A stretch of 64,000 nt of DNA from Halomonas sp. 1513 (GTDB taxonomy: Bacteria; Pseudomonadota; Gammaproteobacteria; Pseudomonadales; Halomonadaceae): NCBI GenBank assembly GCA_001971685.1, contig CP019326.1:3472001-3536000 (forward strand), written 5' to 3'. Every line of letters starts with the position of its first letter. The stretch's first letter is position 1. The position numbers and the translations under genes were made by a program. Positions 19,777 through 35,356 of the stretch are shown here, piece after piece. The notes beneath the pieces are model-generated. The model was given only the letters and a program-made list of their open reading frames with translations. It ran no database searches and was not told the DNA's origin.

Positions 19777-19854
19777 TGCGGATTTTGCGGATTTGCGGAT
19801 AAGGCGTAGCGACGGGGTTACCCAGCTGCGGATCATTTGCGGATGATTGCGGAT
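19777..19854 (+). repeat. Six-iteron TGCGGAT array A (left end)
   Basis: Exact TGCGGAT at 19777, 19786, 19794, 19827, 19838 and 19848: two triplets with spacings 9-8-33-11-10. A degenerate TGCGGTT lies at 19763. The array is intergenic between attL and the Xis-like gene. The same spacing recurs in arrays B (30064-30141) and C (35278-35356, reverse). Confidence 0.9.
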
Positions 19855-19927
19855 AAAATAGCCACGGTAGGGGTGGGATGGAACGTCCCATCGGCACGGT
19901 ACCCGTTGCAGGTTTGAGTAGGACGAT

Positions 19928-20122
19928 ATGGCACAGAACAAATGGGTTCTTCGGAACAAGCTGTCGGAGCTCTATGGCTACTCGCTCTCAGCGATCGACC
20001 ATAAGCGTAAGGACGGCACATGGCCTGAGGGGCGCATCTGGCGGAAGGCCCCCGATGGCAGGATTTTCTACAACGTCGAGGCCTTGGACCGCTGGGTGGA
20101 GTCGGGACCAGGTCCCCGCTGA
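19928..20122 (+). CDS. Excisionase-like small DNA-binding protein
   Basis: 64 residues. The order W-V-L-x-N-K-L-S-E-L-x-G-Y-S-x-x-A-I-x-x-K-x-x-x-G-x-W and W-R-K-A-P-D-G-R-I-F-Y-N-V-E-A-L-D-R-W-V-E matches a family of lambdoid excisionase/MerR-like winged proteins that direct excision by the integrase. It lies 290 nt inside attL, next to the iteron array and arm-like repeats, which suits a recombination directionality factor. The ribosome site is modest (TAGGAC before ATG). The integrase it would serve is at the other end of the element and meets it only in the circular form. Confidence 0.75.
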   Translation: MAQNKWVLRNKLSELYGYSLSAIDHKRKDGTWPEGRIWRKAPDGRIFYNVEALDRWVESGPGPR

Positions 20123-20254
20123 GCACATCGAAAACCAACACCAGCCACTTCCGTTCATAGCCGAGGCGAGGAGCGCCTGGAGCACCTACACAAAGGGCGG
20201 CACAGGCAGCTCGCCGGCAAGCCGACCCAATACCGGGAAATGACCAAGGCATTG

Positions 20255-20473
20255 CTACAGATCCAGAAAGCTCAAGTTGATAGTAGCCTCCTGTGGCACC
20301 GGGTCTACGCTACGCCCTCCCAGAGCCCTCAAAGCTGCCTCACGGAGTACGACCGGCCAACCGTCAGCGTTAACCCGATACGGAATGCCCATGGCTCTCA
20401 GATGATCGATCTGCTTGCGGCGCTGGGAGGCACCCGTGAGTTCTTTTAGCTCAGTCCGGCTCAACACAATCAT
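20255..20473 (-). CDS. DUF4224 protein
   Basis: 72 residues. L-S-R-T-E-L-K-E-L-T-G-A-S-Q-R-R-K-Q-I-D-H-L at the N-terminus followed by G-I-P-Y-R-V-N-A-D-G-W-P is the DUF4224 pattern, a short helix-turn-helix-like family common beside phage integrase genes. Its function is unknown and is probably DNA binding. Its ATG at 20473 overlaps the stop of the preceding 89-residue gene by 4 nt (ATGA), so the pair is co-translated. It is convergent with the Xis-like gene. Confidence 0.8.
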   Translation of the reverse strand: MIVLSRTELKELTGASQRRKQIDHLRAMGIPYRVNADGWPVVLREAALRALGGRSVDPVPQEATINLSFLDL

Positions 20474-20739
20474 GGCATGGCTCTCTCAACTGAATCGATA
20501 TACTCAGGCGCGGGATAAAAGCGCCTCTGCCTCTTGATGCCCGTCCGGCCTTGGATCCCTTCTCTCAGGCCTCCAGCCTTCATACTCTCACCCCCCCCAG
20601 CACCATCTTGAGTAATACCGCCGGCACGCGCTGCAAGGCCATCCCGGCGGGAGATGGAAATGTTACTTCTCGTATTCAAGTTCGCTTGATTCTTTGTGGG
20701 CTCATCCCTATCCTTCAGCCACACGTAGCGTGAAACCAT
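20470..20739 (-). CDS. Hypothetical protein coupled to DUF4224
   Basis: 89 residues, basic and Gly/Arg-rich in the middle, with an N-terminus (MVSRYVWLKDRDE) and a C-terminus (RRFYPAPEYIDSVERAMP) that look more ordered. It has no family I recognise. The 4-nt ATGA overlap with the DUF4224 gene is the best evidence that it is translated; its own ribosome site is weak. The 33 nt upstream separate it from the divergent Panacea gene, so both promoters must be packed in that gap or overlap coding sequence. Confidence 0.5.
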   Translation of the reverse strand: MVSRYVWLKDRDEPTKNQANLNTRSNISISRRDGLAARAGGITQDGAGGGESMKAGGLREGIQGRTGIKRQRRFYPAPEYIDSVERAMP

Positions 20740-20772
20740 TGAACGACACGGCTGCGAAGCACGGAGAGAGAT

Positions 20773-21222
20773 ATGACGACAGCGCGAGACATTGCTAACT
20801 ATCTGTTAGTTAAGGCGAATCAGGCTGAGGGTGAGGCAGCTGAGATCTCGAATCTGAAGCTGCAGAAGCTGCTCTACTATGTTCAGGGCTTTCATACCGT
20901 GCTTTTTGATCGCCCTGCATTCGATGACCGCATGGAAGCGTGGTTGCATGGCCCAGTACTCCCGTCTATCTACCGTGAGTTCCGCCAATACGGCAATGGG
21001 AACATCCCGGCGCCGCCTCCTGAGGTAGTCGACCAGATCGACGAAGATACTGCCGAGCTGGTTGATGAGGTATTTAATGTATATGCCAAGCACTCAGCGT
21101 GGCACCTGCGCAACCTGACCCACGAAGAGGATCCGTGGCTTAACAACTACGACGCTGAGACTGGCTCGCAGGAGATCACCACTGAGGATCTGGCAGAGTT
21201 TTTCCCCAGCTTGCTTGAGTGA
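20773..21222 (+). CDS. Panacea (DUF4065/SocA-like) antitoxin-domain protein
   Basis: 149 residues. D-I-A-N-Y-L-L-V-K-A-N near the start, then ISNLKLQKLLYYVQGF, EAWLHGPVLPSIYREFRQYG and a C-terminal domain: this is the Panacea domain, formerly DUF4065, shared by SocA and by phage GepA-type proteins. Panacea domains neutralise many unrelated toxins. A good ribosome site (GGAGAG) precedes ATG 20773. The next gene starts 6 nt after its stop and is the likely toxin. The lower GC and different codon use suggest recent transfer. Confidence 0.85.
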   Translation: MTTARDIANYLLVKANQAEGEAAEISNLKLQKLLYYVQGFHTVLFDRPAFDDRMEAWLHGPVLPSIYREFRQYGNGNIPAPPPEVVDQIDEDTAELVDEVFNVYAKHSAWHLRNLTHEEDPWLNNYDAETGSQEITTEDLAEFFPSLLE

Positions 21223-21228
21223 TGCAGC

Positions 21229-21660
21229 ATGGCTAATAGTGGGAAGAAGCGCCGCATCAAGGACCGTAAGGCAAGAACCAAACAGGACTTGGCGCAGCGT
21301 CGCCCGGAGAGAAAGTCTACCAATCGAGAAACCCCTTGGTTCTGTTTCAACCAGTTGCAACGGGGTCATTGCATACAGGACTGTGAGCGTGAGCAGCAGG
21401 CAGCAGTAGCGGATACCTTGCGCCGACTGAGCCAACTCACCTGGGGTGAAATTTCCCAAGCGCACCGGCATGGGCTTGGCTACGAAAAGATTTCGCGTGA
21501 TTCCTTAAAGGTGCCGATACCACCGCAAGTTACTGAAGATGCCCAACTGCTGTCATTCCGGTGTCATGCACATGCCCCAATGGTGGGTTATCGAGTTGAC
21601 CGAGTGTTCCATGTTGTCTGGGTAGATCGAGCGTTCGACGTATACAACCATGGTTCCTGA
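21229..21660 (+). CDS. Putative toxin paired with the Panacea antitoxin
   Basis: 143 residues. The first 35 are highly basic (KKRRIKDRKARTK...). A compact domain follows (PWFCFNQLQRGHC; LTWGEISQAH; LLSFRCHAHAPMVGYRVDRVF; VVWVDRAFDVYNHG). The pattern of a final beta hairpin with F-x-V-V-W-V-D and Y-N-H-G recalls RelE/ParE-sized RNA-acting folds, but I cannot assign a family. It starts 6 nt after the Panacea stop and is followed at once by a terminator, so the two form a bicistron. Toxin identity is inferred from that arrangement. Confidence 0.6.
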   Translation: MANSGKKRRIKDRKARTKQDLAQRRPERKSTNRETPWFCFNQLQRGHCIQDCEREQQAAVADTLRRLSQLTWGEISQAHRHGLGYEKISRDSLKVPIPPQVTEDAQLLSFRCHAHAPMVGYRVDRVFHVVWVDRAFDVYNHGS

Positions 21661-21661
21661 A

Positions 21662-21682
21662 CCCCGACGTCGCGGGGTTTTT
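21662..21682 (+). terminator. Rho-independent terminator after the Panacea operon
   Basis: CCCCG / CGGGG stem around ACGTCG followed by TTTTT (21678-21682), directly after the stop of the putative toxin gene. The T run overlaps the stop of the convergent doc gene. Confidence 0.8.
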
Positions 21683-22119
21683 CAGTCGTTCAGCGCTGAA
21701 GTGTCGAATTCTCGAGACCACCCGGCTAGCCAGTCAGCCAACTCCTCGGCGGTGTATTCGTGTGTTGCTACACCCTCGTAGATCGTAACCACCTCATGGC
21801 CCGGCGCGGTCAATTCCCATCCATTCAGCAAAAGAAACACATACACGCACTCCGCAGCTGTGCGCTTGTTGGCGTTTAAAAAGCAATGATTCTGAACAAG
21901 TCCCTCGCCAAGCACTGCAGCCAACGTGAATATGTCGTCGGTCTGTTCGTAATATCGGTGGGTACAGGGCCGTTGTTGAGCGCTTTCCAAAGCCCCTTGG
22001 TCAATGATGCCAAAGGGCTCCTCGGGAGTTAGCTCGAGCATGCGCCTGTTCGTGGTGACAATATCCGCCACCGGGAGGTAGCGAATGCCATCCGTATGGC
22101 TGTCACCGCAGGACGACAA
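21682..22119 (-). CDS. doc: Doc-family (Fic fold) toxin
   Basis: 145 residues. The Fic motif reads H-C-F-L-N-A-N-K-R-T-A-A, i.e. H-x-F-x-N-x-N-K-R. Canonical Doc and Fic proteins have Asp or Glu at the fifth position, so an Asn there deserves attention. The N-terminus IRYLPVADIVTTNRRML is typical of Doc, which phosphorylates elongation factor Tu. The start I give is TTG 22119; no ATG or GTG exists upstream of the conserved start. It begins 6 nt after the stop of a 56-residue gene that is the candidate antitoxin. It is convergent with the Panacea operon. Confidence 0.85.
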   Translation of the reverse strand: MSSCGDSHTDGIRYLPVADIVTTNRRMLELTPEEPFGIIDQGALESAQQRPCTHRYYEQTDDIFTLAAVLGEGLVQNHCFLNANKRTAAECVYVFLLLNGWELTAPGHEVVTIYEGVATHEYTAEELADWLAGWSREFDTSALND

Positions 22120-22125
22120 TCCGAA

Positions 22126-22296: not shown

Positions 22297-22316
22297 GGTG
22301 ATCCCTCCTCTCTACG

Positions 22317-22371: not shown

Positions 22372-22460
22372 TCAATGAATAAAGCGTACGCGAGACCATG
22401 CGTGAATGCAATATGAGTACAGCTTCCGAAATGGTGCTACCGCAATTGCGCTGAAATCCG

Positions 22461-24018: not shown

Positions 24019-24064
24019 GTTGTGTTGCTCCTCTTCGATTGCCGGCGGCGCCGGCTGTGTGCCG

Positions 24065-24574
24065 TCACGCGTCGGCAGCGGCGTCTTCGTCGTCATCGAC
24101 GATTGCTTGATACATCTGCTCGCGTAAGGCGTCGGTTACGAGCTGCACCATCTCGATGGCCTCAGGCGGTAGCCCGGCATCACGCTCGAGCATGTCAGCC
24201 AAGGAATCGAGACCACTCGCCACGGCCTTGGCCAGAGCAGCCATTTCCCGCTGAACCTCGCTGTCCGGTACCAGGCTGCGTAACTCGCGCTCGAGCTTTA
24301 CCCGCTCGTTCTCGCTCTGGAACCAGGCCTTGCGGTCCTGGGGCAATAGGTCGTTGATGTCGAGCCCGTCGCCGGTGATGGCTCGGCGATCGGCTGTAAG
24401 CGCATCGACAACATCGGCGAGCCGGTATATCGGGTTACCACGCCGGGAACCTGCCGGCGGAATCGCCGCATCTTTGATCAACGTGGCCACCGTGCGCCTG
24501 TCGCGACCGATCGCTTCAGCGAGTCGGCTGATCGACCAGTGGTAGGCCTGCTCCCGTCCAATCACCTCGCCCAT
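24065..24574 (-). CDS. DUF1441-type small terminase subunit-like protein
   Basis: 169 residues. The N-terminal 60 form a winged HTH (SISRLAEAIGRDRRTVATLI, then GNPIYRLADVVDAL) like the Nu1/TerS DNA-binding domain. The middle (DINDLLPQDRKAWFQSENERVKLEREL) is the DUF1441 hallmark. The rest is helical and acidic at the end. Small terminases recognise the packaging site of the phage genome, and several satellites carry their own to steer packaging. No large terminase gene is present in the element. That the protein works as TerS here is inference from the family. Confidence 0.72.
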   Translation of the reverse strand: MGEVIGREQAYHWSISRLAEAIGRDRRTVATLIKDAAIPPAGSRRGNPIYRLADVVDALTADRRAITGDGLDINDLLPQDRKAWFQSENERVKLERELRSLVPDSEVQREMAALAKAVASGLDSLADMLERDAGLPPEAIEMVQLVTDALREQMYQAIVDDDEDAAADA

Positions 24575-24607
24575 CGTCTGCTCAGCCGCACCCGCGGCGC
24601 TCCTCCA

Positions 24608-24853
24608 TCACCTGTACATCAACGCGGCCGATCCTGGTGCCGCTATGCTCAGCTTGCACAGCTCGCATCTCCCACCGTTGCTGGGCTCGGGGCCACCTGC
24701 GGTGGAGCACCCAGGGAGCCCAAAAATTTGTCGAAATCCAGGGCTCAGCGTCCCCGTGGCCGGGGGGTGGGCGCCAGGAAGGACCCGCGATTTCTCAGCG
24801 GGAGCGTCGCCAGCAACTGAAGCCCATGGGGCGCGCGATCCATTCCGGGTCAT
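24608..24853 (-). CDS. Doubtful small protein between the tail-Z-like and small-terminase-like genes
   Basis: 81 codons. The ATG overlaps the stop of the minor-tail-Z-like gene by 4 nt, which favours translation. The product is Gly/Pro/Ser-rich (PGAHPPATGTLSPGFRQIFG) and has C-E-L-C, without a recognisable fold. The same 275-nt interval could instead be a non-coding packaging region, since small terminase genes often lie beside cos or pac. Confidence 0.35.
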   Translation of the reverse strand: MTRNGSRAPWASVAGDAPAEKSRVLPGAHPPATGTLSPGFRQIFGLPGCSTAGGPEPSNGGRCELCKLSIAAPGSAALMYR

Positions 24854-25401
24854 TTCTTTATCAGCCGTTCGGCTTCATGCGCCATCCTTTGTATCAATCG
24901 ATTTCCGGATGGAACCTGAAGGTCATCTTTCACGTCGGTGTATACTTGGCTCACGCTGGGCCCGTGGAGAATTTGCAAGCCGCCACTCCGGCCGAGGCCA
25001 GGCCCGTGCTTGGTGCGAATCGCGATCGCCTGCACGCCATTGGCGAAGGTGATGTAGAACGCCCCTGGCATACGCTTCTTTCCACCTGAGGGTTTAACCT
25101 GAACACCAATCCCGCCTCGCGCATACTTGCGGTTATCGTAGCGGGTCAGCAGCACCCCCCGGGAAGGAGTTTCGAGGCGCCCCATGGGGTTAGAAACGGT
25201 TGCCTTCCTGATGTTTAGTCGCTCTCTGACATAGCCGGCTTTCAGCTTCACCTGCTTGCGTATTTCCACTCCTGCTTCAGTCTTTGTAACGCTCAACGTG
25301 TGATTGATGGCACGGCTCATGGCGGTGCTAGAACCGTTTCTGATATGCGATAGCGCTCTCTCGACTTCTCGGATGGCGTTTACATCCATCTTTACTTTCA
25401 T
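24850..25401 (-). CDS. Minor tail protein Z-like (phage)
   Basis: 183 residues, basic. The pattern A-M-S-R-A-I-N-H-T-L-S-V-T-K-T-E-A near residue 30, then K-A-G-Y-V-R-E-R-L-N-I-R-K-A and a glycine-rich beta region (YDNRKYARGGIGVQVKPSGG) with a C-terminal helix matches the lambda gpZ/minor-tail-Z family found at the tail-head junction. It starts at ATG 25401. In lambda-like phages this gene precedes the tail tube and tape measure genes; here it comes after the tape measure gene in transcription order. Confidence 0.65.
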   Translation of the reverse strand: MKVKMDVNAIREVERALSHIRNGSSTAMSRAINHTLSVTKTEAGVEIRKQVKLKAGYVRERLNIRKATVSNPMGRLETPSRGVLLTRYDNRKYARGGIGVQVKPSGGKKRMPGAFYITFANGVQAIAIRTKHGPGLGRSGGLQILHGPSVSQVYTDVKDDLQVPSGNRLIQRMAHEAERLIKK

Positions 25402-25485
25402 GCCCGTGTTCCTCTACCTGGTATCCAGAAAGTGGTGCTGGCCGGGGGGGGAATCCGGCACCAGCCGGCGGCCGCTGGTCATCAT

Positions 25486-25926
25486 TCAGTTGGCCCCCCC
25501 TGGTCCGGGGTTATGGCCACCCTCTGACTCGGCCAGGGCCGATGCCAGCAAATGGTTAAACATCTGGAGCTCACGCTGGGCCGTGGCTTCTCTCATTACG
25601 TGGTGTTCCAGGTCGCGCGTATAGTCCATGGCCTGGTTTGCTAAGCGCGTCACCGCCTCCCCCCGGGTGTCTTCAGGTAGAGTGCGGGCGTGGTCGAGAA
25701 TGGCGTCAGCGAAGGCCATGAACGGCGCCTGCAACTCGCTACGGGTAGCTTTTGAAAGCGCAGCGCCAGCTGCTCGAACCGTTCTGCAGCCCACACCTGG
25801 GCAGCGAGCGCCGAGGGCCCTCAGGTTGGCCAGGGCCAGGTTGAATTGGCGATGGTGATAGTCCCGCCGCTGGCGGGCAGCGGCGGATCTCTCGTCAAGC
25901 TCGCGGAACAGAATCGGCGTCATCAA
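25486..25926 (-). CDS. Helical protein, probable paralogue of its upstream neighbour
   Basis: 146 residues, nearly all helix, with three cysteines (ARCPGVGCRTV is part of a loop). A middle block (FMAFADAILDHARTLPEDTRGEAV) aligns by eye with FDEFTDALIHLARKHPPGAAERDR of the neighbouring protein, and similar helix lengths follow. The start overlaps the upstream stop by 4 nt. It is downstream of the tape measure gene. No family recognised; a tail-assembly accessory role would fit the position but is not supported by sequence. Confidence 0.6.
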   Translation of the reverse strand: MMTPILFRELDERSAAARQRRDYHHRQFNLALANLRALGARCPGVGCRTVRAAGAALSKATRSELQAPFMAFADAILDHARTLPEDTRGEAVTRLANQAMDYTRDLEHHVMREATAQRELQMFNHLLASALAESEGGHNPGPGGAN

Positions 25927-26399
25927 TGAATACCTCCCCCCTGGTTACGCTCAAGGGCTCGCTGGGCGTTCGCCTCCTTGGTCAAGGTGTCGAGGCGCAG
26001 CAGAGCGCCTAGCTCGTCCCTGCGGGCCTTCTGTGCCTTCGCCATAAGCTCGGTACACTGCTCGACGATGCGCATCATGCGGTCGCGTTCCGCCGCCCCT
26101 GGTGGGTGCTTTCGCGCCAGGTGAATCAGTGCATCAGTGAATTCATCGAACAGGGCACGCCGTTGATCGGCCTGTGCGGTGGCCAAGGCGTAGCCCGAGG
26201 CAGTTATCGCCGGATCGCCAAGTGAGCTGGCTTGATGTGCCATCTGGCCGAGCGCCTCGCGCACTTGCTCCAGCGACGCTCGGGCCTGGTTCAAGGCCAC
26301 CCTGTTAATCGCTACCTTTACCGCCAGGGCTTGCAGGACAGGCGACAGCGTCGGATCGAGGCCGGGGATTACCCCCTTGCTGGCTGCTCTTTGCACCAT
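25923..26399 (-). CDS. Helical protein after the tape measure gene
   Basis: 158 residues from ATG 26399, 2 nt past the tape measure stop; ATG 26417 in frame, overlapping the tape measure gene by 17 nt, is an alternative. All-helical, with Ala/Arg/Gln-rich repeats, and a block FDEFTDALIHLARKHPPG shared by eye with the next protein, suggesting tandem duplication. The stop overlaps the next start by 4 nt. Function unknown. Confidence 0.6.
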   Translation of the reverse strand: MVQRAASKGVIPGLDPTLSPVLQALAVKVAINRVALNQARASLEQVREALGQMAHQASSLGDPAITASGYALATAQADQRRALFDEFTDALIHLARKHPPGAAERDRMMRIVEQCTELMAKAQKARRDELGALLRLDTLTKEANAQRALERNQGGGIH

Positions 26400-26400
26400 A

Positions 26401-29214
26401 TCAGGCACCCCCACCATTCAGCCCCAGCAGGAACTCCGCCCCTTCGGCGCTGGCCCTGAGCTGAACCTTCTCGATGATCTGCCACATCACCATTTCCAAG
26501 GCCGGCTCCAGGCCATCGCTGCTGATGTTGATAAGGCCGCCGCCGTTACGGATCGCATCAGTGCGAACTCGCATCTGCTCGATCTGCTCTCGAGTCAACT
26601 CGGCTTCGAGGCGCATGGCCTCATCACGCCGGGCACTCTCGCGCTGAATCTCACGCTCCAGCCCCAGCTCCTGCAGTCGCGAAATGTCGCCGGATCCCAG
26701 CACGCCATATAGCCCCTGGAGAACGTCACCCGTGTTATCGATGGTCGCGCTGATACTGTTGAACGCCGCCTCTACTCGAGCGGTGTCTGCTTCCAGTTGG
26801 GCGGTCTGCAGGCCGGCGGAGATCTCGAAGTTTTTAATGCGCTCGTTGCTCGCCAGTTCCTCCAATGAGAGCTCGTAATCCAACACCGCCTGCCGCGCCT
26901 TCAGAATGGCCTCCTGACCCTCGAGCACCTCGTTGGCCAGGTCCTGCTGCGCCTTGGCGCCGGTGTCGGCGCCGTTGCGCATGCTCTCGTAGTACGACGT
27001 CAGTTCATCGAACTGCGTCTGACTGATCAGGCCCTTGTCGAACGCGGCGCGCACCTCGGCATAGGCCGACTCAAGCTCGCCGATATTCGTGACCTGCTGG
27101 AACACGCCATCGTTGACCTGGCGCCAGGCGTTTTCCATCGGGCCAATTTCTTCGAGCACGCCGCGCAGGCCGTTGGCGGTACGCTCCTGCTCGTCGGCGA
27201 ACGCGGCGCTGTTCTTGAAGGCCTCCTCCACCACGGCGTCGAAGTCGGTGTAGCGGGCCTCGACCTCCTGCATCGCCCGCGCCTCGCGCTCGCGCTCGCG
27301 CGCCTCGGCCTGCCGGTCGATCCCGAGGATGACGTCACTGGCCTCGCGGTTCATCCGCGCCATGCGTGTCGCCAGGTCCTCCTGGGCCTCGCCGGCGGCG
27401 ACCCAGTCGCTGACAGCGAAATCCCACACCAAACGGCCATCGGCGATGGCGCGATTCTGCTCGCGCAGCTCGCGCGTCGCCTCGTCAACGTTGGCACCAA
27501 AGCCCATGATGTCGCGGCCGGCGGTGTATACCGCCGCACCGGTGATCGCTACGCCAGCGGCCAGACCAACCGGGCCGGTGAGCACGCCCACCAGGCCGGA
27601 TACCAGCGGCGCGGCCTTGGCAATCACTCCGCTGCTACCCAGCACCGGCCGCACGATTCCGTTGAACGTGATCACGGCGCTGGCCAGGGTGTTTAGCGCC
27701 AGCGAGGCGCCGCCGATCGTACCCACAACCACCGCCCAGGCTGGGTCGAGCTCCAGGGCGAACTGCACCAGGTTGGCCATCTGCTCGAGGAACGGCCCCA
27801 GCGCGGTGATCGCGCCGGCCGTGTAACCGCTGAGCGTCTCGAATGCCAGGCCGATGGTCTCGATCACGCTGGCCAGGCCCTCAGCGCTGGAGAGGTTGGC
27901 ACCGCCGAACAGCTCCGAGATGGCCTCGCGCACCATGTCGATGCCGTTGAAGAAGCTGGAGAAATCCGCACTCTCCAGCGCCTCGGGCAGGTTGCGGGCC
28001 ACATCGCTGAGCGTCTGCTCGATGCCGCCCATCATGCTCTCGAGCTGATTGACGAAGCCCTCGAGCTGGCCATCGGTGATTGACGCGCCCACTGCATTGA
28101 AGATCTCGGCGATGGCAGCCTGAATCCCGGTGAACTCGTCCAGCAGCGGGTCGCCCACCGCGATCAGCGCGCCGGTCATGGCGTTCTGGATGCGCTGCGT
28201 GCCTTGCTCCACCGTGCCCGCCATGCGGGTGTAGGCCTCTTGCGCGGCGCCGGTGCGGTTTTCCTGGTTTTCCAGGGCCACGGCGAACTTGTCGGATGCC
28301 TCGCCGGTCAGCGTTAGCACGCCCTGGAGCGCCTGCACACTGCCGAACAGCGTCGCCATTTGCTCGGTGTTGCCGCCGGTGGCCTCCGCCACAATATCCA
28401 TCATCCCGGCCAGTCCCTCGGACTCCAGGGCCGTGGCACCGAATTCGATATTCAATTCAGCGGCGAGATCCCGTGCCTGCTTCGCGGGGTTGATCATGTT
28501 GGAAATGGCGGATACAACCTGCGTTACCGCCTGCGACGTCGGCGTGCCGGTGGCCGTAATGGCAGACACTGCCGCCAGCAGTTCGCCAAACTCAATCCCA
28601 GCGTTGGCCGCCAGGCTGGTGGCCTGGGACATCGATGCCGACAGTTCAGGCAGGGTCGTGATGCCGTCGCGCACCGCTTGGAACAGGGCGTCGGCATAGT
28701 CGCCGGCTTCCTCGGCGCCAGCGCCATAGGCGTTCAGCGGACCCTCCAACGCTATCAGCGCGCTCTTGAGGTCCGACTTGCCGCCGATGGCGAGCATCTC
28801 GGCCTTGCGTACTACGTCCAGCGAGTCGGCATAATCCACGCCGGCAGAGATCGCCGAGTAGACCGCGCTGTTGATGTCGCCCAGCGACTGAGCACTCTCC
28901 CGGCCGTACTCGAGAATTTCCTGGCGGAAGCCGGCCAGGCTATCGGTCGGCTCGTCGATAAGCGTCGAGATCTCGCGGAACTGGCTATCGAAGTCGCCGG
29001 CCAGCTTGATCGCAAAGCCGGTCACCGCCACACCGGTGGCCAGCAGCGCCGTCTGGAACGCCAGTACGTTCTTGGTCAGATCCGCCATCGGCTCGGTGGC
29101 TTTCTGCACCGACCCCGCAACGCCGTCGATCTGGCGGGTGGCGCTGTCCACCCCCGCCCCCATCTGGTCGACGCCCTCGAAGATGATAGCGACGCTTTTT
29201 TCTAGATCGGCCAT
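26401..29214 (-). CDS. Phage tail tape measure protein
   Basis: 937 residues from ATG 29214. The N-terminal 350 residues are the conserved tape-measure core (NVLAFQTALLATGVAVTGFA; FDSQFREISTLID; AISAGVDYADSLDVVRKAE; YGAGAEEAGDYADALFQAV; VTQVVSAISNMINP). Hydrophobic segments lie near residues 470-580 and a long charged helical C-terminus follows. In siphophages this protein sets tail length and passes into the cell during injection. It is preceded by an AT-rich stretch and a small basic gene. No tail tube, chaperone or baseplate gene is in the element, so it would act with proteins from elsewhere. Confidence 0.88.
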   Translation of the reverse strand: MADLEKSVAIIFEGVDQMGAGVDSATRQIDGVAGSVQKATEPMADLTKNVLAFQTALLATGVAVTGFAIKLAGDFDSQFREISTLIDEPTDSLAGFRQEILEYGRESAQSLGDINSAVYSAISAGVDYADSLDVVRKAEMLAIGGKSDLKSALIALEGPLNAYGAGAEEAGDYADALFQAVRDGITTLPELSASMSQATSLAANAGIEFGELLAAVSAITATGTPTSQAVTQVVSAISNMINPAKQARDLAAELNIEFGATALESEGLAGMMDIVAEATGGNTEQMATLFGSVQALQGVLTLTGEASDKFAVALENQENRTGAAQEAYTRMAGTVEQGTQRIQNAMTGALIAVGDPLLDEFTGIQAAIAEIFNAVGASITDGQLEGFVNQLESMMGGIEQTLSDVARNLPEALESADFSSFFNGIDMVREAISELFGGANLSSAEGLASVIETIGLAFETLSGYTAGAITALGPFLEQMANLVQFALELDPAWAVVVGTIGGASLALNTLASAVITFNGIVRPVLGSSGVIAKAAPLVSGLVGVLTGPVGLAAGVAITGAAVYTAGRDIMGFGANVDEATRELREQNRAIADGRLVWDFAVSDWVAAGEAQEDLATRMARMNREASDVILGIDRQAEAREREREARAMQEVEARYTDFDAVVEEAFKNSAAFADEQERTANGLRGVLEEIGPMENAWRQVNDGVFQQVTNIGELESAYAEVRAAFDKGLISQTQFDELTSYYESMRNGADTGAKAQQDLANEVLEGQEAILKARQAVLDYELSLEELASNERIKNFEISAGLQTAQLEADTARVEAAFNSISATIDNTGDVLQGLYGVLGSGDISRLQELGLEREIQRESARRDEAMRLEAELTREQIEQMRVRTDAIRNGGGLINISSDGLEPALEMVMWQIIEKVQLRASAEGAEFLLGLNGGGA

Positions 29215-29276
29215 GTCGTAACTCTCTGTTCGTGTCTCGCCGCGGACGCACACAAAAGGCGCCTACTATGGGCGCC

Positions 29277-29570: not shown

Positions 29571-30299
29571 TTACCGGATCAGCGCCAGCAGACTGCGATT
29601 GGCTGCACAGCGCCCTCGGTTGGTCTTGCAGTGATCCTTGGGCTCTGCCTCGGCGGCCTCCTGCCAGGTAGCCACGTAGCGTCGGGCGGCACGTTCACGC
29701 GCTTTAGGGGGCAATGTTCGAAGCCTGACGCAGATGAAACGGCGGTCCTCGGGCACTAATGGGCATCGATCGGCTATCCAGTCGATCCAGTCAACACGGC
29801 CAGCCAGGCTGCCGCGTCGGGGTTGTTTGGGGATCCATACGCCCAGCAGCTTGGCCACCTCCTGTTGAGCCTCCTTGGCGTCTTTGGCCGTTTCGAAAGC
29901 GTCATCAATGGCAGCAGCCAGGATGGCGCGGGCATGCCGATCCATCGGCGCCAGCACGTCTCGCAGACGATTGGCCAAGGGCATACCAAGGTCACGACCG
30001 GCACCACTCACCAGAGCGGTAATGATCGCTTCAGTCTCGTAGGATGGCGCTGGCTCAGTAGGCTGCGGATTTTGCGGATTTGCGGATAAGCCCCCCGGCT
30101 GGGGATCGACACCTGCGGATGAACTGCGGATACCTGCGGATTCCGTCGGCGCTACCTGGCCAACTCCAGTTACCGCTGAGGCGTCGCTATCAGGTAAAAG
30201 CAGGTCTGTCGCCTGTCGTGCCTGGGTGGGTGGCTGCGCTGGGACCAGCGGGTCGTCGCCATCCCACAGGCGACGGCCAATTTCCATCAGATCGATCAT
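29571..30299 (-). CDS. Hypothetical protein whose linker region contains iteron array B
   Basis: 242 residues. The N-terminal 85 are disordered-looking and Pro/Ser/Gln-rich, and the DNA coding for that part carries six exact TGCGGAT iterons. The C-terminal 155 are helical and charged (GMPLANRLRDVLAPMDRHAR; WIDWIADRCPLVPEDRRFICVRLRTLPPKARERAARRY) and end in a CKTNRGRC motif. The start is 3 nt after the DUF3987 stop. Position at the end of the replication operon, with iterons inside, suggests a replication or partition role; no family recognised. Confidence 0.65.
   Translation of the reverse strand: MIDLMEIGRRLWDGDDPLVPAQPPTQARQATDLLLPDSDASAVTGVGQVAPTESAGIRSSSAGVDPQPGGLSANPQNPQPTEPAPSYETEAIITALVSGAGRDLGMPLANRLRDVLAPMDRHARAILAAAIDDAFETAKDAKEAQQEVAKLLGVWIPKQPRRGSLAGRVDWIDWIADRCPLVPEDRRFICVRLRTLPPKARERAARRYVATWQEAAEAEPKDHCKTNRGRCAANRSLLALIR
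30064..30141 (+). repeat. Six-iteron TGCGGAT array B (inside a coding sequence)
   Basis: Exact TGCGGAT at 30064, 30073, 30081, 30114, 30125 and 30135. The spacings 9-8-33-11-10 equal those of array A exactly. It lies inside the 5' part of the 242-residue gene, just downstream of the DUF3987 gene. Confidence 0.9.
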
Positions 30300-30302
30300 G
30301 GC

Positions 30303-31826
30303 TCATGCCTCCCCTACCAAGCGCCAGCTCGCCGGCTGTCCGCGGGGACTACTGGTGGCGATCTGGAGATGACCGGTGTCGACCAGGAAGCCCAGCAGTG
30401 GCCTGGCTTTCTTGGCGCTGCGGTACTCACTTGGCAGGCGCTTGAAGTCCTGGGCATGTAGCACGCCACCGTGCTCCTTGATCCACTCCAACAGCTCTCG
30501 AGCCTGCAGCTCCTCAGTGTCCTGCCGTGCCTCTGCACTCCGGATCGCCATTGACTCCAGGTAATAGGCCACCAGCCTGCCAGCGCGCTCAATATGCGCC
30601 ACGCAGGGGGCCTCATGGCCTTCCACCAGCGCCAGCACAGTAGCGATTCGCGCCGCGTTGTCGGCGGCCTTGCTGGCAAATGCCTGCACATCACGAAAGC
30701 GACCATCGGGCTGAACCTGCAGCTCGATAGCGTCGTGCAGACGCGCCCATGCTTCGTAAGCCTCGCCCTCAATACGCACGAGCCTGGGGGACAGTGAGCC
30801 GCTATCGTCGACCTCCAGTGGGGTGCGGATCAGGTCGGTGAGCACGGACCAGTAGCGGGCGATTGCTGGGTCATGGTGCGGCCCCTTATTGGGGTCGCGG
30901 CCTTTCAGCAGTCGCTGTCCCACTAGGCTTGGCTCTTGCACGATCAGGAAGCGTGCGAGGAAGCCCTGTCCTTGCAGCAGCGGGTCACCCAACACTTTGG
31001 CGGCGACCACCGGCTGCAGCATCAGGTGGGCAGAAAGGCGGCGGCCGGCCAAGACCCCAGACTCGCCCGCCGTGCCTCGAGTGCGAGTGATCGGGGCGCC
31101 ATCCCACAGCTTGGAGACCATCGCCACGGTGCGTCCGCGTCCTTCTTCGCTCATCCCGTGACCACCGAAGAAGCCGACACCTTCATCGGAGAACAGCCCG
31201 GCGCTCGGGTGGTTGTTCTGCAGATGGCGATAGATGCCCTCGGCGGTAGGCTCGCCAAACGTCATGCTCGGCATGGTGGGCGCTTGCGGCTCCTCAGCAT
31301 CTATGGCAGTCAACGTCTCTTGCAGATAAGCCGCCTCGCCCTCGCTCATCGCCTGCTTGCCCTTGGGCTTAGCGGCATTGACCAGGGAATCACGGCGCAT
31401 TTCCCACACCTCACGCGCTGCTTTGTGGGCGGCCAGTTCCTCAGGGTGGTGCTGGCGCTTCTCGGCCTCCAGCTCGCGGATCGGTGACAGCGCCAGCGCA
31501 TCCAGGCTCGACTTCCTCTCGCCGCTGCCGGCTACCGTCATGCAAAACAGCGATACCGGCCCCCGACCGATCTGGCCTCGAGCCACGTCTACTTGCCCCT
31601 GAATGGCCAAGGCGGCTGCAGCCAACACGGATTGGCCGGCCATGCCAGGCGGGGTCTGCACGTAGTAGGCCAAGCGCTCGGCCGCTTCACCTAATACCGG
31701 TCCCAGCGCATCAATCGGGTACTCTGGCGGCGCCTCGCGTTCAGCTAATGGTAGGGGCGCCAGCTCGATGCGGCTCCCTCGCTCGGGCGGTTGCTCGCTT
31801 TGGTGCTTCACAGCTGCCATCGTCAT
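30303..31826 (-). CDS. DUF3987 replication protein (helicase-like ATPase)
   Basis: 507 residues from ATG 31826, which overlaps the Toprim gene stop by 4 nt. The DUF3987 signature is clear: VAGSGERKSSLDALAL, a Walker-A-like GSGERKS, then PSMTFGEPTAEGIYRHL and SAGLFSDEGVGFFGGHGM as the Walker-B-like block, and LMLQPVVAAKVLGDPLLQGQGFLARFL. These proteins, next to a Toprim primase gene, serve as the replicative helicase/primase module of many satellites and integrative elements. The C-terminal 120 residues form a wHTH-like tail. Confidence 0.82.
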   Translation of the reverse strand: MTMAAVKHQSEQPPERGSRIELAPLPLAEREAPPEYPIDALGPVLGEAAERLAYYVQTPPGMAGQSVLAAAALAIQGQVDVARGQIGRGPVSLFCMTVAGSGERKSSLDALALSPIRELEAEKRQHHPEELAAHKAAREVWEMRRDSLVNAAKPKGKQAMSEGEAAYLQETLTAIDAEEPQAPTMPSMTFGEPTAEGIYRHLQNNHPSAGLFSDEGVGFFGGHGMSEEGRGRTVAMVSKLWDGAPITRTRGTAGESGVLAGRRLSAHLMLQPVVAAKVLGDPLLQGQGFLARFLIVQEPSLVGQRLLKGRDPNKGPHHDPAIARYWSVLTDLIRTPLEVDDSGSLSPRLVRIEGEAYEAWARLHDAIELQVQPDGRFRDVQAFASKAADNAARIATVLALVEGHEAPCVAHIERAGRLVAYYLESMAIRSAEARQDTEELQARELLEWIKEHGGVLHAQDFKRLPSEYRSAKKARPLLGFLVDTGHLQIATSSPRGQPASWRLVGEA

Positions 31827-32752
31827 GCGGCACCCTCCTCGAGCTGTTGGCACCGCGCCAGGTCATTGAAGTCAGTACAGGTACAGCCAACGCACGGGAA
31901 GCGAGGCCATGTCAGATCAGCGCGGATCGACTGGGCGGCGGCGCGGCCGGCCGTCATGCCTGGATTGCCTTCGGTTCGGTGGTCGTTATCAGCGGCCACG
32001 GTGATGGCCACCTCGGTCGGTAAGCGCTGGCGCAATGCGTGACCTACCGTCGCAAGGTTGTTGGCGGTCATGGCCGCCACCACAGGACTTCCGGTCGCCT
32101 CTTGCAGTGTGGCGGCGGTTGCCCAGCCTTCGCATAGGTAGACGCGCTCAGCGCCAGCCAGACGGCCCAGCAGGGAAGCGGCACCTTTGAGCCGGGCGCG
32201 TGGCAGGAATCGCTTTCCGCCATCGGGGTGGATGCGCTGCAGATTGACCAGCGCGCCAGCGCAGAACAGCGGCACCAACAGCACGTCGCCTTGCTGGCGC
32301 AAGCCATGGTGCCGAACGCGCTTGCACTGCAGGTAGGGGTGGTTTGGGCTCGCCGGCTGAGCGGAGGACCAAAGGCGGCGGGCGCGATCGGCGGCTTCGG
32401 CGTGATCTCGCTGGCGCAGGGCCTCTCGTTCTCGCCGCGCGCGCTCGGCGGCTTTCCGGGCCCCCTCTGCGGCGGCGGAGTCATGCTCGCCGGCCAGAGT
32501 AACGGTCTGCTGTTCCCCCGTGTGCCAGTAGCCGAACACTGCCACTTCAGGTGTGGGGCAGACATACCAGCCGGCCAGGTTGCCGCGGCGCTTGTCGGGG
32601 GCATCGAAGCGGTGGACTTCACCATCAGCACAGATCGACAAACCCGTGACGCCACGAGCGGCCAGGGCCTCGACCAGCGCGGTGGTGATGCTGTGGTGAT
32701 GGGTCGCCTCTGGCTGGCCTTTGTGACGATAGTCGGCTGCATGAGTCGTCAT
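31823..32752 (-). CDS. Toprim-domain primase-like protein
   Basis: 309 residues. The Toprim motifs are visible in the C-terminal half: V-Y-L-C-E-G-W-A-T-A (catalytic Glu), the strand PVVAAMTANNL, then ITVAADNDHRTEGNPG (Asp-x-Asp). The N-terminal half has a DUF-like domain and a charged helix rich in Arg and Glu. C-V-G-C-T-C near the end could bind zinc. It is the fifth link in a chain of 4-nt overlapped genes and is overlapped with the DUF3987 gene, with which it probably forms the element's primase-helicase. Confidence 0.82.
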   Translation of the reverse strand: MTTHAADYRHKGQPEATHHHSITTALVEALAARGVTGLSICADGEVHRFDAPDKRRGNLAGWYVCPTPEVAVFGYWHTGEQQTVTLAGEHDSAAAEGARKAAERARREREALRQRDHAEAADRARRLWSSAQPASPNHPYLQCKRVRHHGLRQQGDVLLVPLFCAGALVNLQRIHPDGGKRFLPRARLKGAASLLGRLAGAERVYLCEGWATAATLQEATGSPVVAAMTANNLATVGHALRQRLPTEVAITVAADNDHRTEGNPGMTAGRAAAQSIRADLTWPRFPCVGCTCTDFNDLARCQQLEEGAA

Positions 32753-33036: not shown

Positions 33037-33251
33037 GCCGAGCCCTCCAGAACAGCCAGCCGCCGCTCGAGCAGTTGGGTAAGGAAGCTGCGCAGCTTCT
33101 CTTGCTCCTGGTCAGTCAGCACCAACAGGCCGTAGTTGGTGGTTACCTGGCCGGCGCTCGCTGCCTGCTTACTCAGTGCGTAACGGGTGTGGTCGATAGC
33201 ATCCCCCAGGTCGCGGGCGGCTAACTCCATCACGATCTCGCTGCAAGTCAT
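33033..33251 (-). CDS. Hypothetical small protein of the replication operon
   Basis: 72 residues, helical, beginning MTCSEIVMELAARDLGDAID and ending in a helix (EQEKLRSFLTQLLERRLAVLEG). 4-nt overlaps on both sides. No family recognised. Confidence 0.6.
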   Translation of the reverse strand: MTCSEIVMELAARDLGDAIDHTRYALSKQAASAGQVTTNYGLLVLTDQEQEKLRSFLTQLLERRLAVLEGSA

Positions 33252-33514
33252 GACGTGACCTCCCGGCTCTCACCTTGGGCGTCAGGCGTATTCACAAGCT
33301 CCTCATCTTCAACGATCGACTCAGCTAGCAAGGTCGCTTGGTTGGCCAGATGGCTCATGGCAGCAAGCATGGCGCCCTGTTCGTACTCACCGAGCACGGC
33401 TTTTTCACCCTCATTTGCTCGGCGCACCAGGTCGGCTTCAAGGATCCCTGTCATTCCATATATGGCGCCAACGATGTCCTTGATGCTCTCGGCGCGAGTG
33501 TTGGGGCGGGTCAT
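33248..33514 (-). CDS. Hypothetical small protein of the replication operon
   Basis: 88 residues, acidic and helical (GILEADLVRRANEGEKAVLG; ANQATLLAESIVEDEELVN). 4-nt overlaps on both sides. No family recognised. Confidence 0.6.
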   Translation of the reverse strand: MTRPNTRAESIKDIVGAIYGMTGILEADLVRRANEGEKAVLGEYEQGAMLAAMSHLANQATLLAESIVEDEELVNTPDAQGESREVTS

Positions 33515-33765
33515 TGGGCAACCTCCTGGCCAGCGCCAGCTAAGGGAGGCCCCTCTCTTTTGTCGTATGCCTCGGCGAGCCAGCGACGTTGGTTGCCAGT
33601 AACCTCATGGCGCTGCCGGGACCGCCTATCGGCGAGGTGTGCTTCGATCTCTTGCAGGCTCCAGCCATCAGCACTGAGAACCAGGGCTGCATAGGTGTCG
33701 GAGGTGACGTCCAGTGGACGTGCCGGAAGATTACGAGGATCGATCTGCTGCAGACGTGAGTTCAT
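33511..33765 (-). CDS. Hypothetical small protein of the replication operon
   Basis: 84 residues. The part YAALVLSADGWSLQEIEAHL then ADRRSRQRHEV could be an HTH, so DNA binding is possible. 4-nt overlaps with both neighbours. No family recognised. Confidence 0.55.
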   Translation of the reverse strand: MNSRLQQIDPRNLPARPLDVTSDTYAALVLSADGWSLQEIEAHLADRRSRQRHEVTGNQRRWLAEAYDKREGPPLAGAGQEVAQ

Positions 33766-33947
33766 GACGCCACCTCCTGCTCGCTTCCGCGGGCTTCCAG
33801 GCGGCGGGCTTTCTCGATGTGGTGGTTGTAACGCTTTAGGCGGGTGCTGGCGCTGGTATCGCTGAACAGGGCAGCTCTGGCCATTGCCCGGTGAGCAGCG
33901 GCGCGCGCAGATGGGTTGCGAGTAGGGAACAGGCGGAATGACGCCAT
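33762..33947 (-). CDS. First small gene of the replication operon
   Basis: 61 residues (MASFRLFPTRNPSARAAAHRA then a basic helix). The open frame continues far upstream, but this ATG at 33947 marks the sensible start: the upstream part crosses a terminator and repeat-rich non-coding sequence. It is 4-nt overlapped with the next gene and heads a chain of seven coupled genes ending with DUF3987. No family recognised. Confidence 0.55.
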   Translation of the reverse strand: MASFRLFPTRNPSARAAAHRAMARAALFSDTSASTRLKRYNHHIEKARRLEARGSEQEVAS

Positions 33948-33956
33948 GGGTCTGAC

Positions 33957-34142
33957 TCCTATGTGATCGGAGTCGTCCCCGGCTGCGGCCAAGCAGCTGA
34001 TGGGGGCGACTGTACGCAGGTTGGCCGACCGGTCACATAGGAAACCGGCACACCCGGAGGTGTCCCGCGCACAGCCGCCATAGCACATGGCAGGCACAAA
34101 AAAAGCGCCCGACATGGTGGTGGCGCTTGTGCGCCTATGTAA
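33957..34142. promoter_or_regulatory. Repeated CCTATGTGA-type elements between alpA and the replication operon
   Basis: TCCTATGTGA at 33957-33966 has a perfect inverted copy TCACATAGGA at 34033-34042 and a near copy GCCTATGTAA at 34133-34142. CCGACCGG recurs next to the second and third. Element one is itself flanked by GACTCC / GGAGTC. This looks like an operator region controlling the operon that starts at 33947, perhaps bound by AlpA. Confidence 0.45.
34098..34127 (-). terminator. Rho-independent terminator after alpA
   Basis: On the minus strand AAGCGCC pairs with GGGCGCTT around ACCACCATGTC, followed by a run of seven T. It lies 93 nt after the alpA-like stop, so alpA and the replication operon are separate transcripts. 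Confidence 0.75.
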
Positions 34143-34219
34143 TTCCGACCGGCCAAGGTCGGCTGACGAATTTGCGCCAGCAGAAAGAGCATAGTCGGGC
34201 ACAAGGGCAGCGGTCAACA

Positions 34220-34420
34220 TCAGGCCACCTCCCCACGTCCGGCTTCCCAAGCCAGGAGATCAGCCAAGCGCCAGCGAGTGCAGTTGTCACCCAGCTTCAC
34301 GGGCTGGGGGAATTTACCTTCGCGAGCCCAACGCCAAATGGTAGGCACGCTCACGCTTTCCCGCTTCGCCACTTGGGTAGCAGTCATGAAAACGGGAGCA
34401 TCAGTGGGATGATCTGCCAT
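34220..34420 (-). CDS. AlpA-family transcriptional regulator
   Basis: 66 residues. M-T-A-T-Q-V-A-K-R-E-S-V-S-V-P-T-I-W-R-W followed by A-R-E-G-K-F-P-Q-P-V-K-L is the AlpA HTH signature, and W-R-L-A-D-L-L-A-W completes the wing. AlpA-type regulators switch on integrase or late genes in P4-like satellites and cryptic prophages. A terminator at 34098-34127 follows. It is flanked upstream by the 243-residue gene. Confidence 0.88.
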   Translation of the reverse strand: MADHPTDAPVFMTATQVAKRESVSVPTIWRWAREGKFPQPVKLGDNCTRWRLADLLAWEAGRGEVA

Positions 34421-34516
34421 AACACTTCACCTTGTCTTATGCGGTTGCAAGGTGGAGGTTGGCGGAATGGGAGGGCGGGGTATTGCTAGAATTTAGTGCG
34501 AAAATTGGAATGTTGT

Positions 34517-35248
34517 TTATTCTTCGTCGTCGACGCAGCCAATACGCTTCCCGGTGATCTCTTCGACAATCTCATGAGCTCTGCGACTACGCTTAGCCGA
34601 ATCGCTATAGTAAGCTGCTTTCAGGGTACCTGGCTTGATTCCTAGCCTTTCACCGACTTCTTCAAATAGGCCGTCATCTATCGGCTTCCCCAAATCCCTA
34701 CTAGCGAAGTAGACTTGCATCGCCGCCATAAGTTTGGAATGCCTGTGCTTATCCAGATACCCATCGATCACCAGTGGCGGTTTTGCTAACTCACCATCTT
34801 TGGCTTTTCTAGCCCGCACCAATGGCATCCCCTGCCCTTGGCCAAACCACTTTGCGCTGCCCTCCATGAAGTCATAGGCAGCACTACCCAACGTCGAAAG
34901 ATGGTAACTATCAGGGACAGTGTCTGGGTCAGAAAGTGCAGCGATTGCTGACACCAGGTGACCCACATCTTCACCGTAGGCTGCCACAAACTCATCCTCT
35001 TGCTTGGCATTATCGGCTCTACTCAGCCTGAAGAGAGTGATAACGCCATCCAGCCCCATGGGGGTGTGCGCCGTGCCGCTCGCGCCTGCATAACTGAAAA
35101 TTACGCCAGCGGCATCTTCTCTGGTCGCCCCATCCCACTCCACAACGCGCGTGCTCAGCTTGTCGCTACCCATATACTCAGCCAGCCGATCTAGCACGCT
35201 ATCTAGATCGGACTGGATTGCTTTCAGCTCGTCGTCCATATCCTTCAC
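34517..35248 (-). CDS. Hypothetical protein, low-GC accessory gene
   Basis: 243 residues, acidic and helical. Features seen are an N-terminal helix (DELKAIQSDLDSVLDRLAEY), a serine/alanine central part (VIFSYAGASGTAHTPMGLDG) and a C-terminal segment (LFEEVGERLGIKPGTLKAAYY) that may be an HTH. Base composition is clearly lower in GC than the flanking genes, which points to a separate origin. It sits between the integrase gene and alpA, a slot where satellites often carry defence or immunity cargo. I do not recognise it. Confidence 0.65.
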   Translation of the reverse strand: MKDMDDELKAIQSDLDSVLDRLAEYMGSDKLSTRVVEWDGATREDAAGVIFSYAGASGTAHTPMGLDGVITLFRLSRADNAKQEDEFVAAYGEDVGHLVSAIAALSDPDTVPDSYHLSTLGSAAYDFMEGSAKWFGQGQGMPLVRARKAKDGELAKPPLVIDGYLDKHRHSKLMAAMQVYFASRDLGKPIDDGLFEEVGERLGIKPGTLKAAYYSDSAKRSRRAHEIVEEITGKRIGCVDDEE

Positions 35249-35277
35249 CTCAGCAATAGGGCTATAGGCCAGGGATT

Positions 35278-35356
35278 ATCCGCAGCTACCCGCAGCGCTT
35301 CCGCAAGTGGCCAGGTCAGCTCTGATGCACTTTTCCGCAAATCCGCAATATCCGCA
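35278..35356 (-). repeat. Six-iteron array C (reverse orientation, degenerate)
   Basis: On the minus strand TGCGGAT-type units start at 35356, 35347, 35339, 35305, 35294 and 35284; three are exact and three have one mismatch. Spacing 9-8-34-11-10 repeats that of arrays A and B, with 1 nt more in the central gap. It is intergenic between the integrase stop and the 243-residue gene. Confidence 0.85.

Follow-up and report, generated by a model that had tools for sequence, protein, structure and literature searches.

Iteron arrays as candidate initiator-binding sites of a Toprim/DUF3987 replication module in a phage-satellite-like element of Halomonas

Genes and arrays of the integrated element

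The window, a 64,000-nucleotide stretch of Halomonas sp. 1513 contig CP019326.1, contains a 17.2-kb element in tRNA-Leu, and the three arrays studied here, A, B and C, all lie within it. An identical 59-bp direct repeat (19581-19639 = 36777-36835) marks attL and attR, and separate CCCAATA repeats occur near both att sites. In its gene content the element resembles a phage satellite, carrying int, xis, an AlpA-like gene, neck and tape-measure-like genes and a gene for a small-terminase-like DUF1441 protein (phrog_141 small terminase, E 1.8e-48). The features are as follows.

19581..19639, no strand: attL, 59-bp copy of the 3' part of tRNA-Leu(caa)
19777..19854, plus strand: array A, six exact TGCGGAT iterons, steps 9-8-33-11-10
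19928..20122, plus strand: xis, excisionase of 64 aa, downstream of array A (phrog_539, E 2.5e-15)
29571..30299, minus strand: geneB, 242 aa, frame starting 6 bases after the DUF3987 open frame ends
30064..30141, plus strand: array B, six exact TGCGGAT iterons, steps 9-8-33-11-10
30303..31853, minus strand: DUF3987 protein (PF13148, E 1.9e-83; phrog_2373 'DNA helicase', E 1.8e-58)
31823..32752, minus strand: Toprim primase, a homologue of the primase portion at the N terminus of P4 alpha
34220..34423, minus strand: AlpA/excisionase-like regulator (phrog_66, E 6e-13)
34517..35248, minus strand: geneC, hypothetical
35278..35356, minus strand: array C, six iterons, three exact and three with one mismatch, steps 9-8-34-11-10
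35384..36703, minus strand: tyrosine integrase (int) of the element
36777..36835, no strand: attR, 59-bp repeat inside tRNA-Leu(caa) 36777-36863

On the plus strand, units start at 19777, 19786, 19794, 19827, 19838 and 19848 in array A and at 30064, 30073, 30081, 30114, 30125 and 30135 in array B, and these word positions bear out the original prediction of six exact units with the same steps in both. Minus-strand scoring likewise confirmed that C is reversed, with exact units at 35278, 35341 and 35350 and the mismatched units TGCGGGT, TGCGGAA and TGCGGAA. The predicted placements were also correct. Array A lies between attL, which is near, and the excisionase gene, 73 bp upstream of xis. Array B falls in a frame beside DUF3987, ~160 bp 3' of its stop codon, within a variable linker of geneB (encoding ...IRSSSAG...LSANPQNPQ...). 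Array C is directly 3' of int and 29 bp upstream of geneC.

TGCGGAT alone is not rare: the window has 23 occurrences, compared with a mean of 13.3 in shuffles. No full array or triplet, however, appeared in 60 block-of-two shuffles of the 23-kb region at the thresholds used. In the 4.13-Mb own genome the pattern TGCGGATN{1,5}TGCGGAT occurs 10 times, 9 of them within A, B and C, and the reversed control pattern not once. Together, the shuffles and the genome-wide counts rule out a chance origin. Comparison of the three arrays gives identities of 31-50% for the inter-triplet spacers and 20-53% for the flanks, so that the arrays are unlike recent copies of one segment, and recent duplication was rejected.

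The AT maximum of 60-mers near the arrays is 0.73 at A (the att region), 0.47 at B and 0.53 at C; A adjoins one of the element's two most AT-rich 60-mers. No AT-rich unwinding element lies consistently beside the arrays of the window, Salinicola (0.45-0.52) or Oceanospirillum sanctuarii, where only one array reaches 0.70 (60-mer). A terminator scan gave nothing useful.

The positions of A and C just upstream of xis and geneC raise the alternative of operators, in which a regulator encoded by the element, or Rep, would bind A and C to control these genes and B to control the rep/geneB region, with replication not directly involved. Rep autoregulation through iterons is common. Against this, a weak test found no sigma-70-like promoter at A or C, and B is 3' of DUF3987 inside a gene, a 3' placement that is the constant one in relatives. 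Outside the window, Salinicola is the one clear case of xis, and there the nearest array is 3.9 kb away (a 21-aa match in locus L049, E 0.018, was taken as chance). Among 13 pieces, geneC recurs in Chromohalobacter alone, and an array does lie ahead of it there. The facing pairs of 3+3 arrays found in some relatives also exceed an ordinary operator. We regard operators as unlikely, and what is left of this reading concerns A and C.

Arrays and DUF3987 in related and distant loci

An array lies at most 0.5 kb 3' of DUF3987 in the window, Halomonas lysinitropha, Salinicola, O. sanctuarii and three Marinobacter, Granulosicoccaceae, Haliea and Parahaliea pieces, where DUF3987 identity to the window's protein falls to 37%. 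The array is incomplete in Haliea/Parahaliea, and Chromohalobacter keeps the first triplet 3' of DUF3987 and has lost the second in three of its four arrays. The layout 9-8-33/34-11-10/11 is kept in 13 arrays whose spacers are on average 40% identical. Placement was left out for M. excellens (L058) and for the int-side array of H. lysinitropha (L050), each at a contig end with DUF3987 on another contig.

Within the order, 5 of 293 genomes contain the triplet pattern and the other 288 do not. The same five are those with a best DUF3987 match below 1e-200 to profile A1, which was built from array-bearing loci, so that its E-values favour those loci (it includes proteins from four of the five, and only G162 is independent). 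Reached instead by DNA pattern, genomes with genuine arrays have DUF3987 in 11 of 12 cases, against 0 of 2 for chance-match genomes. O. beijerinckii has an array and no DUF3987, and we take this array to be a remnant. A family-wide pattern search hit 6 of 275 genomes and added no element beyond those already found.

In five Halomonas/Oceanospirillum-type pieces all 15 arrays point toward DUF3987, although these are not 15 independent events. Marinobacter elements carry two facing arrays each, and in six pieces with facing pairs 6 of the 12 arrays point toward DUF3987 and 6 away. As with B and C in the window, arrays lie on both sides of the rep genes in Salinicola, Chromohalobacter and O. sanctuarii, one of them 3' of DUF3987. 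The original prediction had read strong selection from the position of B in a reading frame; B does lie in a reading frame, but this is not peculiar to the element, as by coordinates arrays overlap the frame following DUF3987 in 18 of 28 loci.

These relatives also bear on other possible binders. Recombination control, with the arrays as arm or accessory sites of integrase or excisionase, would fit the location of A near attL and of C beside int. Yet 6 of 13 array-bearing pieces have integrases with 27-62% identity to that of the window, none was detected with it in the others, and the pieces lie near different tRNA genes while word and layout are common to them. In addition, B is 5.2 kb from int, and the CCCAATA repeats near the att sites are a separate set. 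Because the arrays do not co-vary with integrase or att site, integrase arm sites were rejected, and recombination control in general seems very improbable. A packaging site read by the phrog_141-type protein that the element encodes is less probable still. Small terminase was not detected in the 13 array-bearing pieces (some cut by contig ends), and three packaging sites would cut the element. Excisionase and terminase sites were both rejected. Plasmid centromeres are typically spaced direct repeats in several copies, and the arrays might in principle form a centromere-like partition or incompatibility site of the excised circle. This is highly unlikely given that the arrays associate with DUF3987/Toprim and that no ParA/ParB-like gene was found among the element proteins searched, a subset of its genes. 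The arrays track DUF3987 rather than integrase, excisionase, AlpA or small terminase, and a common binder and a replication origin are therefore the best supported of the options first put forward.

In more distant loci the repeat word changes. In a word-agnostic scan, 24 of 110 loci scored at least 37 downstream of DUF3987, against 0 of 102 upstream regions and 0 of 1320 block-of-two shuffles; this threshold was set after seeing the null (maximum 36 in shuffles, 35 upstream). The sample began as 129 DUF3987 loci, of which 111 remained at 90% identity and one was too short; dereplication dropped the Salinicola locus, with its perfect array B, and Chromohalobacter (score 34) stayed. Of these 24 loci, L155 scores with a word of low complexity, and the origins carried by L143 and L144 are almost identical. 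Distant relatives have the words CTGTGCAA, GGTGCAA, TGCGACA and TGCTTAA and keep the triplet-gap-triplet, with steps of exactly 9-9-34-11-10 in L118 (CTGTGCAA) and L136 (GGTGCAA). Facing pairs occur in these two loci, Marinobacter and Psychrobacter. For 16 arrays in the scan the best word was not TGCGGAT; 5 of them have a gap of 33-35, and in the others it ranges from 29 to 57. The other 86 of the 110 dereplicated loci score below 37, and three enterobacterial YfjI loci have no array. The original prediction had staked itself on relatives sharing the arrays and their spacing. This holds in the close clade, save for the lost and incomplete triplets of Chromohalobacter and Haliea/Parahaliea, and fails in part in distant loci, which mostly have no array or another gap.

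Likeness to known origins

The Toprim protein aligns with P4 alpha residues 15-295 (hhalign 99.4%, E 6.8e-22), and neither DUF3987 nor its C-terminal part has profile similarity to alpha. DUF3987 has been predicted as a helicase (PMC5862659, in part). All 26 chosen DUF3987 C-terminal domains, mostly from array-bearing loci, share one invariant arginine; Pfam gave only weak winged-helix matches for this domain, and PDB profile searches were unproductive. We infer that DUF3987 is a self-loading replicative helicase whose C-terminal winged-helix-like domain would read the iterons. DUF3987 as the sole replication gene of a Psychrobacter plasmid was rejected: the full record also holds repM, and with RepM encoded there the plasmid is no proof that DUF3987 drives replication. 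Separately, a 19-kb circular record of P. putida has no other named replication gene in its incomplete gene table.

P4 resembles this locus in more than the homology of Toprim to the N terminus of alpha. The annotated P4 crr is directly 3' of alpha, with ori on the other side; here, B is 3' of rep and matches crr in place, and C, several kb away on the opposite side and pointing back at the rep genes, matches ori. The minus-strand type 1 repeats of P4 ori have steps 10-65-11-10, giving the 11-10 triplet and a gap of 55 if a third outer unit is degenerate, a match at 5 of 6 sites found after the fact. Primase and helicase/DNA-binding part are fused in alpha, whereas here they are separate proteins and DUF3987 has no detectable alpha similarity. 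The repeat word differs, and P4 ori additionally contains type 2 repeats and one repeat on the plus strand. The crr consists of two 120-bp repeats of mixed orientation without the ruler, in contrast to the three single arrays here, which have no consistent AT-rich tract. In the phage lambda ori, iterons occupy a coding linker inside the initiator gene O itself; array B also lies within a coding linker, but in the gene after that of the proposed initiator.

SaPI Rep helicases recognise directly downstream iterons through their C-terminal domain (PMC7581432, in part), and the PICI ori, which has two sets of iterons, lies 3' of rep (PMC6092414, in part). In such origins, including that of SCC Cch2, iterons in two sets directly follow the gene of a self-loading helicase, and binding by two hexamers has been proposed (excerpts of PMC7581432, PMC6092414); the present loci would share this order of helicase gene and iterons. 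Array B, ~160 bp past the DUF3987 stop, has this SaPI-like trait if DUF3987 is the initiator, and corresponds in place to the SaPI/PICI origin directly 3' of the rep gene. However, the helicase families there are DUF927 and D5/Primase_Cterm, and the same excerpts do not describe a six-site ruler, a two-turn variant or dispersed copies. The two PICI sets flank an AT-rich region, whereas here facing sets occur in Marinobacter and others, and B is a single set that is not AT-rich. The PICMI satellites of Vibrionaceae have int, AlpA and a 'prim' gene, of a class modelled by DUF3987/DUF5906, whose deletion lowers satellite copy number and which is needed for full copy number (PMC10803314, in part). 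Compared by description only, they are ~6 kb and next to fis, with no origin described in that part of the source. We see in the arrays a candidate variant of the P4/SaPI kind of origin.

A model for the three arrays

Sequence comparison shows that the arrays accompany the Toprim/DUF3987 module, that they retain their layout as the spacers drift, and that in Halomonas-type elements they all point toward DUF3987. We think it probable that A, B and C are iteron arrays, candidate initiator-binding sites of this replication module in a phage-satellite-like integrative element. Binding, helicase activity and origin function would all belong to the module.

In the model we propose, DUF3987 would form a self-loading helicase ring and read the repeat word with its C-terminal winged-helix-like domain. 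Several subunits would dock on the two triplets, with 3+3 sites ~3 helical turns apart (~5 in Marinobacter). Wrapping or bending of the array DNA could then place the ring in a set direction, and the Toprim partner would prime after helicase loading. The likeliest account of the three copies is a P4-like ori plus crr arrangement, in which A may be an additional site of the B type, placed at the end of the element. Once the element is excised, the sites may cooperate, by looping or by loading of facing helicases, to start replication.

It is tempting, if distinctly doubtful, to extend this model further. DUF3987 might represent a widespread class of self-loading initiators that read a six-site ruler, its spacing more conserved than its sequence and its gaps (33/34 versus 55) differing by full turns of the helix. 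P4 ori would have the same ruler even though the helicases are not detectably related. In Halomonas-type elements the origin would have been divided into halves, facing one another with the rep operon between them, which need to pair across kilobases before firing.

In a broader context, a DUF family without an assigned function gains a concrete candidate role and DNA target. The arrays also provide a search signature for satellite and phage origins: 3' of the gene, triplet-gap-triplet, with the word left free. If the spacing does outlive the repeat word, then the initiator's geometry, rather than its sequence preference, would be what these origins conserve. Likewise, the natural series from one facing pair to dispersed arrays bears on how bipartite origins like P4 ori/crr arise.

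Arrays and their host element

Three six-unit TGCGGAT arrays had been proposed, A (19777-19854, +), B (30064-30141, +) and C (35278-35356, -), with steps of 9-8-33-11-10 in A and B and 9-8-34-11-10 in C; our check of the sequence bore out these positions and steps. The word itself is common but its arrangement is not: of ten closely spaced TGCGGAT pairs in the whole genome (4.13 Mb), nine fall in A, B or C, and none of 60 shuffles of the region produced anything resembling the arrays. The arrays lie in an element with the following bounds:

19581-19639: attL, 59 bp, identical to attR, a copy of the tRNA-Leu(caa) end
36777-36835: attR, 59 bp, identical to attL, the end of tRNA-Leu(caa)

The element encodes a tyrosine integrase, an excisionase, an AlpA-like protein, a Toprim primase (31823-32752, -), the helicase-like DUF3987 protein (30303-31853, -), and small-terminase, neck and tape-measure-like proteins. 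These last three are phrog_141, phrog_27 and PF10145 proteins (24065-29253); no capsid or large-terminase gene was seen among the element proteins searched, and the 17-kb element may be either a satellite with tail genes or a shrunken prophage. Near its left end are genes for a SocA/Panacea-type antitoxin and a Doc-type toxin (20773-22119). CCCAATA direct repeats in like arrangement close to both ends (19688-19706 and 36687-36705) are candidate integrase arm sites, separate from the TGCGGAT arrays. An inverted repeat, GGGATGG..CCATC, lies 3' of A (19875-19892), and one resembling it comes after an array in Chromohalobacter (L033, beside the array at 2187-2208).

Related arrays and the genes that accompany them

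A 22-base triplet pattern run on 84,980 species genomes returned 35 stretches, every one of which was inspected; matches in Streptomyces and elsewhere were set aside as chance or coding. A coherent gammaproteobacterial group comprises Halomonas, Salinicola, Chromohalobacter, Oceanospirillum, Marinobacter, Granulosicoccaceae, Haliea and Parahaliea, with a gap to the second triplet of 33 or 34 bases in the Halomonas type and 55 in the Marinobacter type, and second-triplet steps of 11-10, 10-10 or 11-11. Exceptions are Chromohalobacter, with one complete array and three in which the first triplet alone is intact, and Haliea and Parahaliea, whose second triplet is incomplete. Among 13 complete Halomonas/Oceanospirillum-type arrays, picked by likeness to the TGCGGAT word, the two outermost units (1 and 6) match it exactly in all 13, and unit 3 does so in six. 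Compared over 78 pairs, their spacers are on average 40% identical, and thus distance is kept while sequence is not.

We searched 13 pieces of at most 20 kb around arrays with the window's element genes (tblastn). DUF3987 and Toprim are present together in ten; two pieces without them (L050, L058) stop at contig ends, and both genomes encode DUF3987 on another contig. The integrase ranges from 62% identity to the window's to undetected, adjoining tRNA genes differ from piece to piece, and none of the 13 yielded the small terminase. The third piece without DUF3987 is from O. beijerinckii, whose genome has no DUF3987 anywhere; it holds a solitary six-unit array (L051:11591-11669) 0.26 kb from tRNA-Arg, where a decayed element would leave it, and this array is probably the remnant of a lost element.

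Within the order, the triplet pattern occurs in five of 293 genomes and none of the remaining 288; the five are those with a DUF3987 match below 1e-200, a ranking partly built in, since the profile contains proteins from four of them (G162 is independent). A family-wide search found the pattern in 6 of 275 genomes, none of them new. The pattern led to 12 array genomes; 11 of these encode DUF3987, and neither of two chance-match genomes does. The main rival to an iteron role is that A and C serve as operators; C lies beside a gene at 34517-35248 (-), which in Chromohalobacter too is preceded by an array. In view of this, and of the partial circularity of the co-occurrence test, we raise the operator reading slightly and lower the iteron reading slightly.

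Layout beside DUF3987

Twelve DUF3987 loci were read as sequence together with an array inventory. Two facing repeat sets, beginning tens of bases past the DUF3987 stop, occur in Marinobacter, Granulosicoccaceae, L118, L136, L093, L086 and Psychrobacter, and are absent on sequence inspection at L142 and L101. By coordinate comparison, arrays overlap the frame after DUF3987 in 18 of 28 loci; the encoded reading varies with the word (SANPQNPQ, VQSVQSVQ or VSQVSQVSQ), and the Psychrobacter repeats are non-coding. The Halomonas type has a single array at DUF3987 (B in the window; two in O. sanctuarii) and more on both sides of the putative replication genes; every one of the 15 arrays found in five pieces of this type is oriented toward DUF3987. 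Three elements, those of the window, of Salinicola and of H. lysinitropha (where the array side is inferred from a second contig), have a gap of 33 on the 3' side and of 34 on the 5' or integrase side, which suggests distinct site types; in O. sanctuarii the gap is 34 in all three arrays.

Eleven DUF3987 proteins were aligned and, with plasmid and phage matches, gave 129 loci, 111 once dereplicated. A word-free scan for any six 7-mers over a grid of spacings, in 0.9 kb around and past the DUF3987 stop, scored at least 37 in 24 of 110 loci, against 0 of 102 upstream regions and 0 of 1,320 shuffles; most of the distant loci gave nothing at this threshold. Steps are exactly 9-9-34-11-10 in L118 (word CTGTGCAA) and L136 (GGTGCAA), and 9-9-34-11-9 in a circular P. 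putida record (TGGCGAC; L191, NZ_CP043577.1). Further words (TGCGACA, TGCTACA, TGCTTAA) have 9-9 or 9-10 triplets with different gaps. The triplet-gap-triplet theme beside DUF3987 therefore recurs under other words, most members of the TGCGG clade keeping the exact ruler strictly and a few other loci having it too.

The P. putida record is a 19-kb circle with genes for DUF3987, Dcm/Vsr, an HNH nuclease, a DEAD helicase and an OmpA-family protein, and may be the circular form of a defence island. Psychrobacter plasmid pA37P2 (L190, NZ_MN657074.1) carries repM alongside genes for an integrase and antiterminator Q, as well as a DUF3987 module whose TGCTTAA repeats face each other. Its DUF3987 region recurs in pA52P5 (loci L190 and L144), and both plasmids are possible plasmid-satellite fusions.

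A putative replication system

The window's Toprim protein aligns with residues 15-295 of the phage P4 replication protein alpha, whereas DUF3987 has no match to it. In the P4 record, crr lies directly 3' of alpha and ori on the opposite side; ori carries minus-strand type 1 repeats with steps of 10-65-11-10, and the ruler was not seen in crr. In SaPI and PICI elements the origin is found directly 3' of rep, and the C-terminal domain of SaPI Rep reads it (PMC7581432, PMC6092414). DUF3987 has been predicted as a mobile-element helicase (PMC5862659), and PICMI satellites require prim, a gene class modelled by DUF3987 + DUF5906, for full copy number (PMC10803314). The literature searched yielded no paper linking DUF3987 with iterons, and excerpts on DUF3987 that mention repeats and origin describe no origin adjoining it.

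We consider it likely that the arrays are iterons through which DUF3987 would act as a self-loading helicase, partnered by a P4-type primase (Toprim). B would be the crr/SaPI-like site, C the facing site that partners it, and A an additional site of B type. Against this reading, an AT-rich tract is not consistently beside the arrays, the Chromohalobacter arrays are degenerate, and a winged-helix search gave no strong match.

L118 and L136 are two DUF3987 elements within one genome (G035), and their differing words on a common layout are as incompatibility avoidance would predict.
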